DNA from: an uncultured Faecalicatena sp.
GTDB lineage: Bacteria; Bacillota; Clostridia; Lachnospirales; Lachnospiraceae
Length of the DNA stretch: 41,881 bases
Direction of reading: 5' to 3'
Assembly: GCA_948468385.1 (NCBI GenBank)
Contig: CAOKHZ010000034.1
Location: 1 to 41,881 of the forward strand
Shown: positions 22,994 through 26,536 of the stretch, one piece after another
How positions within the stretch are numbered: the first letter of the stretch is position 1
How the letters are laid out: each line of letters begins with the position of its first letter
The notes under the pieces: model-generated
The model's input: the letters and a program-made list of their open reading frames with translations, nothing else
Told to the model about the DNA's origin: nothing
Database searches by the model: none
Made by a program: the position numbers and the translations under genes

Positions 22994-23305
22994 CTAGCCG
23001 CCCAGATACGGCGTGCCGTCCTCCACCATCGTCTTCAGCCGCTCAAATTCCCTTTGTAACATTTCCCGCCCCGTCTCCGCGATAATGTAGGATTTCTTCC
23101 GCCCCTCTTTTGCGGTGCGAAGAATAATCTTTTCCTCCTCGAAACGGGAAAGCAGTGCATAAAGCGTCCCGGGACCCACTTGCACCCGTCCCTTCGAAAG
23201 CATTTTCACCTTGTCCATGACGTCCACGCCACAGCACTCCTGCGTCAACGCCAAAAGAATATAATACATCGGCTCCGTCAAAGTCTGCAATTGTTCCCTC
23301 GCCAT
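22994..23305 (-). CDS. PadR family transcriptional regulator
   Basis: A 103-residue winged-helix repressor of the PadR-s1 subclass. EPMYYILLALTQE opens the fold; the recognition part is VGPGTLYALLSRFEEEKII and the wing LRTAKEGRKKSYIIAETG; the C-terminal helix (EMLQREFERLKTMVED) dimerises. It is the last gene of the operon with two DUF2812 proteins, 124 bases after the second. PadR next to DUF2812 is a recurring Bacillota pairing, usually with padR first; here it comes last. Its targets are probably the two AATATCGA palindromes at the operon promoter. AAGGAG precedes the ATG by five bases. Confidence 0.94.
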   Translation of the reverse strand: MAREQLQTLTEPMYYILLALTQECCGVDVMDKVKMLSKGRVQVGPGTLYALLSRFEEEKIILRTAKEGRKKSYIIAETGREMLQREFERLKTMVEDGTPYLGG

Positions 23306-24769: not shown

Positions 24770-26152
24770 TCATTCTCCCCACTCAATTTTTTCCAGTCTT
24801 TCCCGCACAATACGGATTTGTTCATCGGTAAGCCGTTCTCCGGTCGTAATCACCCACACCTCGTCCTCATACTTCACATAGTAACAGTATGAATTCAGAA
24901 GGCCGGCATATGCCGCGTCCCACTGCTCGCTACATTCCTCCAGCTCGGCATCCCCAGCCTCGATGTCCCACACCTTTTCAATCATCCACCGGTATCTGCT
25001 CTGGTAAATTTCATAACGCAGGGTGTCCGTCTCCTCCTGCCGCAAGTCATCCAGTCTGACACGCTCCTCCACGGGCAGTTTGTAACGCTCTTCCTCGGAA
25101 AGTGCCGTTTCTTCCGGCACATATTCCACCTTGCAGGCCAGCATTTCCCCAAACATCCCCCGCCTCCAGAAATATTCCTCGACACTTCCCATGTCTCCCG
25201 CTTCTTTGTAATCCTCCTGAACAAGGGGCACGTCCTCTTTCTGCCAGAAATGTCCGGACGTGAACTCCCCGTTCAAAAAGATTGAAGCCACATCGCCGCG
25301 TTCGGCAACTAACATGACCCCGGTCAGGAACACCACGATTATCCAGAGCCCCATTCCTGACATCGCCACGACCCACAGATTTTCCCGCTTCGGCCGTAAA
25401 TACTCAAATAGCGCGTCCAAAACACTGACTGCCAGCACGAAAAACACAATGGGAACAATCACCTGCCCATGTCCGGCCTGATACGCCAACACGCCAATGG
25501 CTATGATGCCAATGTTATTCCGCAGCCCAATCAGGGAGTACGCCCGTGGTCCCGCCTTGTGATACGAGACCTTTTCCCCCGCCTCCAACTTCTTCTTTTG
25601 CGCGCGCCCCCATGATAACAGCCACGCACCATCCATGAGGCTCCACAAAAGACAAATCACGAAGATGGCGATTACACATAATATGACATTATCATAAAGC
25701 CCCCATGCCGATGTCGGGCACAAGACCCACTGCCACAAATCCAGGCTCAAGAGCAATGCCGGCCAAATGACATCCCTTCGCCACTGCCTCCACTCCGCCG
25801 CGCATACGTTTCGAAACCGCTCTTCCTCGGTCACGATGGAAATGGCATCGTTGCCACACCTGCGAAAAATGCAAAACTGTCCCTGCCCATCCACGAACTC
25901 CCAGCCCGCAACCTCGCAGTAATCCGCATACTCCTCCGCCTCCGCCTCAGGCTTATAATCATAATCCTTGCCCTTGGGAAACACCTGCACGTCGTATTCG
26001 ACATCCTTTTTCTCTCCCCGCTCGAAGACGAGTCCCATCTTCCATTCTTTGAAATGCCATCCCTTTCTGGACTGTTCACGCAAAAACGCGGCAAACGAAT
26101 CACACTCCCGATAACTGAACTTCCGATAAATCCTTTTCCGATTCCTCATCAT
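24770..26152 (-). CDS. DUF2812 domain membrane protein, first paralogue
   Basis: 460 residues and first gene of the PadR-controlled operon. It has the DUF2812 domain (about 1-110, RIYRKFSYRECDSFAAFLRE and WEFVDGQGQFCIF), about five to six hydrophobic helices (about 135-290) and a longer soluble tail with PVEERVRLDDLRQEETDTLR that the second paralogue lacks; it ends with SYCYYVKYEDEVWVITTGER. Role unknown. The near-identical N-termini suggest a recent tandem duplication or gene conversion between the copies. GGGAGG precedes two consecutive ATGs, the second with better spacing. The promoter is directly upstream and overlapped by palindromic operators. Confidence 0.88.
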   Translation of the reverse strand: MMRNRKRIYRKFSYRECDSFAAFLREQSRKGWHFKEWKMGLVFERGEKKDVEYDVQVFPKGKDYDYKPEAEAEEYADYCEVAGWEFVDGQGQFCIFRRCGNDAISIVTEEERFRNVCAAEWRQWRRDVIWPALLLSLDLWQWVLCPTSAWGLYDNVILCVIAIFVICLLWSLMDGAWLLSWGRAQKKKLEAGEKVSYHKAGPRAYSLIGLRNNIGIIAIGVLAYQAGHGQVIVPIVFFVLAVSVLDALFEYLRPKRENLWVVAMSGMGLWIIVVFLTGVMLVAERGDVASIFLNGEFTSGHFWQKEDVPLVQEDYKEAGDMGSVEEYFWRRGMFGEMLACKVEYVPEETALSEEERYKLPVEERVRLDDLRQEETDTLRYEIYQSRYRWMIEKVWDIEAGDAELEECSEQWDAAYAGLLNSYCYYVKYEDEVWVITTGERLTDEQIRIVRERLEKIEWGE

Positions 26153-26217
26153 GAAACCTCCCTTCGCACGCCAATGTAAGTCTGCTTTTACACCCGTCTC
26201 ATATGCCGTGTCAGCAC

Positions 26218-26236
26218 AATATCGAGTGTCGATATT
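26218..26236. promoter_or_regulatory. Downstream PadR-type operator palindrome
   Basis: AATATCGA-GTG-TCGATATT has perfect eight-base arms. It sits just downstream of the expected transcription start, where a bound repressor would block elongation or promoter escape. Its centre is 38 bases from that of the promoter operator. Confidence 0.75.
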
Positions 26237-26250
26237 TCTTTCATGGCTCC

Positions 26251-26279
26251 ATTATAATATCGAGACTCGATATTGTCAA
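26251..26279 (-). promoter_or_regulatory. Consensus sigma-A promoter of the DUF2812-DUF2812-padR operon
   Basis: On the minus strand both hexamers match consensus perfectly, TTGACA and TATAAT, with a 17-base spacer. The spacer is filled by an operator palindrome, so the promoter should be very strong when free and fully blocked when bound. Confidence 0.92.
26256..26274. promoter_or_regulatory. PadR-type operator palindrome inside the promoter spacer
   Basis: AATATCGA-GAC-TCGATATT has the same eight-base arms as the site at 26218-26236. It fills the spacer and touches the inner edges of both the -35 and -10 hexamers, a typical repressor position. Assignment to the operon's own PadR is inferred from linkage. 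Confidence 0.8.
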
Positions 26280-26310: not shown

Positions 26311-26492
26311 ATTATTCGTTACCGTTCAGCCCCGAGCCAGTCACCACGCTGACTGGCTCGGAGGATGCACGTAAATCTGGCCGATGCATCACCCGCTTTG
26401 CCGAAGGCGAACTAAAAATGCGGGTGATGCCAGTTGCAATCCAGCCCGCGCTAACGCGGTGCTGAATTGTAACTATTATTCGTTACTGTTCA
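26311..26492. repeat. Element of three stacked hairpins between 18-bp direct repeats
   Basis: ATTATTCGTTACYGTTCA occurs at 26311-26328 and 26475-26492 with one mismatch. Between the copies lie three hairpins: a perfect 12-pair stem (26332-26343 with 26350-26361), a perfect 11-pair stem (26386-26396 with 26420-26430) enclosing GCCGAAGGC, and a long stem (26434-26472) whose outer arms differ only by G-U-compatible changes and whose top is CCGCG-CTAA-CGCGG. A related hairpin lies at 8437-8477. It looks like a mobile intergenic repeat or a structured RNA. Confidence 0.65.
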
Positions 26493-26536
26493 CGGGTGGC
26501 CGCCCAAACAGCCGCACGGCAACCGGCACATAAGCG

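Follow-up and report, generated by a model that had tools for sequence, protein, structure and literature searches.

The DUF2812-DUF2812-padR operon of the window, the whole stretch of 41,881 nucleotides from an uncultured Faecalicatena sp. that was analysed here, is preceded by a consensus promoter and by two palindromes with identical arms, O1 and O2. These palindromes are very probably operators for the PadR that this operon itself encodes, with one dimer at O1 blocking RNA polymerase and a second dimer at O2. As judged by comparison of sequences, such operators accompany PadR-type operons and hold a fixed place in the promoter. An operon repressed by its own PadR is an already known type; in open-licence full texts, neither this class of operators nor its constant position in the spacer, the twin site or the mirrored centres was found described, nor was any such paper found that has PadR and DUF2812 together.

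The promoter and its probable twin operators

A first, sequence-only reading of this DNA had assigned the operon, with its gene order given correctly, a TTGACA-17-TATAAT promoter whose spacer lies within a palindrome, and had placed an operator with identical arms 38 bp downstream. Both elements were found as described (Table 1). The promoter reads on the minus strand at 26279-26251 and matches the consensus at 12 of 12 positions. O1 runs from the last A of the -35 hexamer through the entire 17-bp spacer to the first T of the -10 hexamer; O2 lies downstream, 38 bp away from centre to centre. The central triplets, given as GAC and GTG in that reading, hold for the plus strand; read as transcribed, O1 has GTC and O2 has CAC. 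Transcription is expected to start near 26244, in which case O2 would cover approximately +9 to +27.

The window contains two 19-bp matches to the O1/O2 pattern, each with 0 mismatches. When up to three mismatches were allowed, shuffled versions of the window gave 0.24 matches on average, and two or more matches in 4 of 100 shuffles. In the draft genome to which the window belongs (4.25 Mb, 94% complete, 62 contigs), the exact 15-bp operator core occurs at O1 and O2 alone, and the predicted regulon is therefore the DUF2812-DUF2812-padR operon alone. One mismatch adds two sites, C31:44015, which lies within an open frame, and C13:76130, which lies upstream of a second padR-DUF2812 operon in this genome. 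This second operon (L017, from C13:76130 onward) carries TATATCG-AAAGG-CGATATA near its start site and continues with a gene that by eye resembles a sigma factor and with one more gene. The motif had also been said to differ from the classical PadR site, ATGT-N8-ACAT, and it does: there is no ATGT on the coding strand from 26300 to 26140, nor any ATGT-N8..10-ACAT.

A dispersed intergenic palindromic repeat, ..GTTCAGCCC...GGGCTGAATTGTAAC.., was observed upstream of this promoter (approximately 26313-26500 of the window) as well as upstream of the promoters of L017 and L019. With at most one mismatch, CTGAATTGTAAC occurs at 95 sites in the genome, as against 3 for the reversed control.

Table 1. 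Features of the promoter region and of the operon in the window.
Feature	Position	Strand	Basis or remark
-35 hexamer TTGACA (consensus)	26279-26274	minus	direct reading and pattern search
-10 hexamer TATAAT (consensus), spacer 17 bp	26256-26251	minus	direct reading and pattern search
O1, AATATCGA-GTC-TCGATATT in the direction of transcription	26274-26256	minus	fills the promoter spacer
O2, AATATCGA-CAC-TCGATATT in the direction of transcription	26236-26218	minus	arms identical to those of O1
Likely ribosome binding site, AAGGGAGG	26157-26164	minus	precedes the ATG at 26152; read from the sequence
DUF2812 membrane protein 1, 460 aa	24770-26152	minus	PF11193, E 1.1e-13; model mean pLDDT 89
DUF2812 membrane protein 2, 419 aa	23430-24689	minus	PF11193, E 3.3e-15
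padR, 103 aa, winged helix, predicted repressor binding O1 and O2	22994-23305	minus	PF03551, E 1.7e-10; model mean pLDDT 92

Recurrence of the operators

A collection of 84,980 species genomes was scanned for two TATCGA-N3-TCGATA sites separated by 8-38 bases, regardless of the genes nearby. The scan yielded at least 117 loci, and padR or DUF2812 was the next gene in 90 of 117 among the matches listed, as called with our own profiles built from proteins of the window's genome. These 90 listed loci had PadR and DUF2812 together in 72 cases, DUF2812 only in 12 and PadR only in 6; some of the 18 single-gene loci run into the end of the available sequence. The 90 listed loci include some from Lachnospiraceae, Clostridium, Oscillospiraceae, Erysipelotrichaceae, Peptoniphilus, Anaerococcus and Enterococcus. 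They cannot be counted as independent: 70 of the 90 listed operator pairs are distinct when taken with their near flanks.

The promoter was no part of the search pattern. In 84 of the 90 listed PadR/DUF2812 loci, O1 was nevertheless centred on the spacer of a sigma-A promoter, compared to 0.79 in shuffled flanks, where a promoter had to match at least 9 of 12 positions and its spacer centre had to fall 0 or 1 bp from the centre of O1. The centre-to-centre spacing in the 90 listed loci was 33 bp (41 loci), 34 bp (21), 26 bp (9), 27 bp (9) or another value from 24 to 37 bp (10), and the 38 bp of the window lie just beyond the range of these listed loci.

The single site behaved differently from the pair. 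Exact TATCGA-N3-TCGATA occurred 16 times, in 15 of 157 class genomes, versus 35 times for the pattern read backwards, and, the window aside, no single exact site lay near any DUF2812 place in the 157 genomes when coordinates were compared by eye. As a genome-wide marker, the single exact site was rejected since it is not enriched in these genomes. When 291 class genomes were searched for exact ATATCG-N5-CGATAT pairs, three matches were obtained, all at PadR-DUF2812 loci and the window being one of them. The TATCGA-N3-TCGATA pair is far more specific than the single site, yet imperfectly so.

Operons were also collected without regard to operators. DUF2812 was present in 34 of the 157 sampled class genomes, at 46 places; from the 43 places outside the window's genome, 40 regions were taken and approximately 370 bp around the operon start was scored. 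PadR was present in 36 of the 40, and 35 regions were usable, with PadR and DUF2812 together and sufficient upstream DNA. ATATCG-N5-CGATAT with at most one mismatch was found in 22 of the 35 operons (7 exact), where 0.08 would be expected from dinucleotide shuffles and approximately 0.5 from stretches drawn at random from these loci (1.5%). Among relatives of the window PadR, 13 of 19 had such a site. The closest match in the remaining 13 operons had two mismatches in 2, three in 6 and four in 5, and by eye several of these divergent operons have common ATTACG-N5-type sites. The operator class is therefore real, but it is broader than the exact TATCGA-N3-TCGATA. Two main subtypes were recognized, TATCGA-N3-TCGATA with an offset of 0 from the spacer centre, and TATATCG[TG]-N3-[AC]CGATATA, which is located 3 bp nearer the -10 hexamer. 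Some further PadR-DUF2812 operons have the downstream site alone, or no site was found. In the window's genome, eight other PadR promoters were inspected, and in two of them (L019 and L023) the spacer is occupied by another palindrome (offsets by eye). The expectation that TATCGA-N3-TCGATA would recur upstream of other PadR-DUF2812 loci was thus correct for the twin, while the exact sequence turned out to be one subtype.

These counts bear on whether the palindromes are products of chance or an RNA hairpin element, an explanation to which we attach practically no credence. O2 would be transcribed and could fold as a hairpin, but O1 lies upstream of the expected start and has the same arms; moreover, recurrence was far above shuffled controls both in the operator-blind operons and in the listed twin-site loci.

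The predicted regulator and its membrane partners

The window PadR scored 41.2 bits against PF03551, above the curated cut-off of 27. Its model has helices at residues 11-19, 26-36 and 45-57 (the predicted recognition helix), a wing at 61-75 and a C-terminal helix at 77-101. This is the PadR-s2 layout of approximately 100 residues, with a winged helix and one long C-terminal helix. A profile search of the PDB finds 3f8b (LmrR) and 4esb (BC4206). The family has two signature tyrosines (PMC6457526), Y20 and Y42 in BsPadR and Y28 and Y48 in LftR. The window PadR has the second as Y49 and has V27 at the position of the first. The first tyrosine is present in 32 of 35 operator-blind PadRs of the class sample versus 8 of 79 twin-site PadRs among the matches listed; most of these listed proteins, like the window PadR, are without it and often have a CCGVD or CGxD motif. 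Residues 24-25 of the window PadR are vicinal cysteines (ECCG), where most class-sample PadRs carry the HGY signature, and a cysteine at residue 25 was seen in 61 of 79 listed twin-site proteins versus 2 of 35 in the class sample. The vicinal cysteines could possibly act as a thiol switch.

Residue 50, which follows Tyr49, lies inside the predicted recognition helix, and its identity appears to go with that of one half-site nucleotide. Among 56 loci that had not been selected by operator, 27 had a scored site and were counted, the 29 others being dropped. Where residue 50 was not glycine, an A stood next to the operator centre in 11 of 12 loci; where it was glycine, in 0 of 15. Seven of the 12 non-glycine loci are the window and its same-genus relatives, and the class sample alone gives 3 of 4 versus 0 of 8 (p 0.018). 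Furthermore, 5 of 79 listed twin-site PadRs have glycine although the search pattern fixes the A. Because of this clade bias and these rule-breakers, the correlation is suggestive only.

The DUF2812 protein was modelled as an N-terminal domain of approximately 100 residues (beta-alpha-beta-beta-beta-alpha-beta-beta), followed by several long helices and a C-terminal domain; a simple scan showed three clear hydrophobic segments, and the N-terminal domain probably faces the cytoplasm. Pfam assigns DUF2812 no function. A Foldseek comparison of the model with the PDB yielded nothing that reached E 0.001 (best 0.38), and a profile search gave weak matches to unrelated membrane proteins and nothing more, so that no function can be assigned from the fold. 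A HAAS domain (three alpha-helices, GxP) was not found in the partner, DUF2812 being the sole match at E values up to 1.

The same layout with other partners

A PadR-FtsW/RodA operon, in which HAAS is matched below the cut-off, is also present in the window's genome; its promoter combines TTGACA with ATATATAGA-N3-TCTATATAT in the spacer and a second site, TATATAGA-N3-TCTATATA. Paired TATAGA-N3-TCTATA gave 3 matches in 291 genomes including that of the window, all three upstream of PadR; at the two other loci, PadR is followed by a protein that by eye has a HAAS-like start. In these small samples, the two kinds of membrane partner are told apart by one half-site letter (ATATCGA versus ATATAGA), the exception being L071, where a TATCGA pair goes with a PadR that looks by sequence to be of the HAAS type. 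At L072, in Desulfobacula, a TATCGA pair precedes tauE-padR, the gene for a TauE/SafE exporter coming first, an arrangement that links the operator to PadR and not to DUF2812. A TATCGA pair was also seen at L093 and L076 (Desulfobacula/Desulfobacterales), where the sequence ends close to the pair.

PadR or DUF2812 was not the next gene in 27 of the 117 listed twin-site loci. Pfam was applied to 20 proteins from 19 of these 27 loci (L049, L056, L076, L093, L102, L106, L123 and L125 being left out; in L102, L076 and L093 the operators are at or near the sequence end). DUF2975 was found in 12 of the 20 listed exception proteins, 9 of them above the curated cut-off, and the remaining 8 were MFS, TauE, Rce1-like (2), APH-like and acyltransferase proteins and two without a match. 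The DUF2975 loci with a TATCGA pair belong to Actinobacteria and Proteobacteria, and PadR was not detected there. At L123 (7194-7259, Cohnella thermotolerans), the pair lies inside a longer repeated stretch within an open frame, and no PadR was found in the surrounding sequence. The notion that the pair belongs to PadR-DUF2812 only was rejected on account of L072, L071 and the DUF2975 loci. Accordingly, the operator class that had been suggested for DUF2812-paired PadR proteins stands as a class, but its layout extends beyond DUF2812.

The DUF2975 operons resemble the window operon in having an uncharacterised membrane protein, the TATCGA-N3-TCGATA pair and, in 5 of 9 loci inspected (L115, L038, L036, L111 and L027), a small HTH gene, which we take to be YozG-like. 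They differ in that this HTH protein is unrelated in kind to PadR. The pair at these loci means that its sequence alone is no proof of PadR, and different proteins may read the same operator DNA. It is nonetheless quite improbable that such a regulator, rather than PadR, reads O1 and O2. The window's genome does have one DUF2975-HTH locus (L282, C2:121467) with TATCGAAAAACAATA upstream, but it lies on another contig and has no exact copy of the site, and promoter placement and operator subtype track padR operons. Counted against the PadR reading are the 27 listed exceptions, the 13 operator-blind operons without a site of at most one mismatch, and V27.

Mirrored centres of O1 and O2

The three central bases of each palindrome are unpaired. 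In 44 of the 90 listed loci the centre of O2 is the exact reverse complement of that of O1, where shuffling expects 12.5 with a maximum of 24 in 2000; within one mismatch, this holds for 73 of the 90. Same-orientation centres were found in 6 (exact) and 11 (within one mismatch) of the 90 listed loci. With duplicates removed, 20 of 51 listed pairs were mirrored versus 4.6 expected, and the 70 distinct listed pairs gave 28 versus 8.6, with z-scores of 8.7, 5.8 and 3.6 for the positions. The listed loci of spacing 26 alone (n=9) gave no clear excess, with 3 exact mirrored centres (p 0.08), and the centres of the window are mirrored with one mismatch. Eleven pairs of other subtypes, hand-picked and read by hand, included 6 that were mirrored with at most one mismatch and 5 with two or three mirror mismatches (four TATATCG[TG] promoters and L019); when the centres were compared in the same orientation, 4 of these 11 pairs had one mismatch. 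As a general rule, mirrored centres therefore hold only in part: they are valid for the TATCGA subtype, and 5 of the 11 other pairs deviate.

Template-switch correction of quasi-palindromes is an established process, and we consider it possible, with considerable doubt, that the mirrored centres are a mutational by-product without function, nearby inverted repeats having corrected each other in this way. Flank positions 8 and 9 are partly mirrored, with z-scores of 2.9 and 3.4 on one side and -0.3 and 2.3 on the other, as such correction might leave them. This flank mirroring is, however, weaker than that of the centre, and at position 9 direct similarity is of comparable strength (z 3.8 and 2.1). 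The alternative to template switching is that two PadR dimers bind face to face, which would predict an effect on repression, whereas template switching predicts none.

Relation to known PadR systems

As with LmrR, LadR and PadR (PMC5428041, PMC5050560, PMC4517056), a PadR-family dimer, here a predicted one, would sit on an inverted repeat at its own or target promoter. According to the same sources, LmrR also contacts the -10/-35 region, and the classical operator is ATGT-N8-ACAT, with N10 in lmrCD. The window differs from these in its half-site (ATATCGA, not ATGT), its conserved inner CG, an O1 centred on the spacer and a second full operator downstream. In PMC5050560, cdPadR1 of Clostridioides difficile is described as a member of PadR-s2 whose own promoter contains two inverted-repeat sets to which it binds, with the motif GTACTAT(N2)ATTATA(N)AGTA. 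The window PadR shares the PadR-s2 layout and two inverted repeats at its own promoter, where binding is predicted, whereas the half-site of cdPadR1 as given there is TACT/AGTA around an AT-rich centre of 11-12 bases; its motif was reported in 200 other genome regions, as against two exact sites in the window's genome.

In Listeria, LltR, whose operon also encodes DUF1700 and DUF4097 proteins, was reported to repress itself approximately 100- to 150-fold (PMC6624303), which makes it a close precedent for a PadR/membrane-protein operon that is strongly autorepressed. The HAAS-PadR dyads of the cited accounts include LltR-lmo0600 (DUF1700) and LstR-lmo0421 (FtsW/RodA-like), and both the lltR and lstR operons are autorepressed (PMC6624303, PMC11237479). 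Like these dyads, the window operon has a stand-alone padR in one operon with a membrane-protein gene, and the PadR-FtsW/HAAS-like operon of the same genome shares its promoter layout, the arms there being TATATAGA. Unlike them, the partner DUF2812 is modelled with a beta-alpha-beta fold, not as a three-helix HAAS domain, and the operator reads CG at the window operon versus AG at the FtsW/HAAS-like operon. Text matches to TATCGA were primers in PMC6624303 and, among those checked, primers in PMC11970672.

Proposed circuit and implications

A PadR dimer on O1 would cover the spacer of the consensus sigma-A promoter and thereby exclude RNA polymerase, and a second dimer on O2, past the start, may add to repression by excluding the open complex or acting as a road-block. 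As padR stands at the end of the operon that it would repress, it would make a self-limiting off switch. Such a circuit would be nearly silent at rest, strong upon release of PadR, and returned to rest by freshly synthesized PadR. The releasing signal may be membrane- or envelope-related, possibly relayed by the cytoplasmic domain of DUF2812.

More specifically, repression might be relieved not by a free small molecule but by the N-terminal domain of DUF2812, which would bind and titrate PadR under membrane stress, as a two-part switch similar to HAAS-PadR that would add to binding at O1 and O2 and not replace it; we put this forward tentatively. PadR and DUF2812 occur together in most of the 90 listed twin-site loci and in 36 of 40 DUF2812 regions, and the model places a separate domain before the helices. 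In addition, HAAS-PadR dyads have been proposed to act likewise (PMC11237479), a proposal that is a close precedent for a membrane partner releasing PadR, and LftR was reported to work with a co-regulator, LftS, although aurantimycin binds neither directly in vitro (PMC11970672). On the other hand, L072 has PadR and the operators with a TauE protein beside them, and DUF2812 has no HAAS domain match. A still wider scheme, which as a whole we think rather unlikely, is that the centres orient each palindrome, a face-to-face PadR pair closes the promoter jointly and DUF2812 opens it by binding PadR, giving a switch that is free of kinase and inducer and whose operator letters are matched to the kind of partner.

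The promoter is recognizable, so that such operons, their regulators and their start sites can be called from DNA, and tightly controlled promoters for use in gut Clostridia could be derived from it. As a feature, the mirrored centres are specific and easily tested, and the system offers a clean test of PadR release by membrane partners. If the wider scheme is true, PadR-DUF2812, like PadR-HAAS, would be a widespread two-part switch from membrane to promoter.
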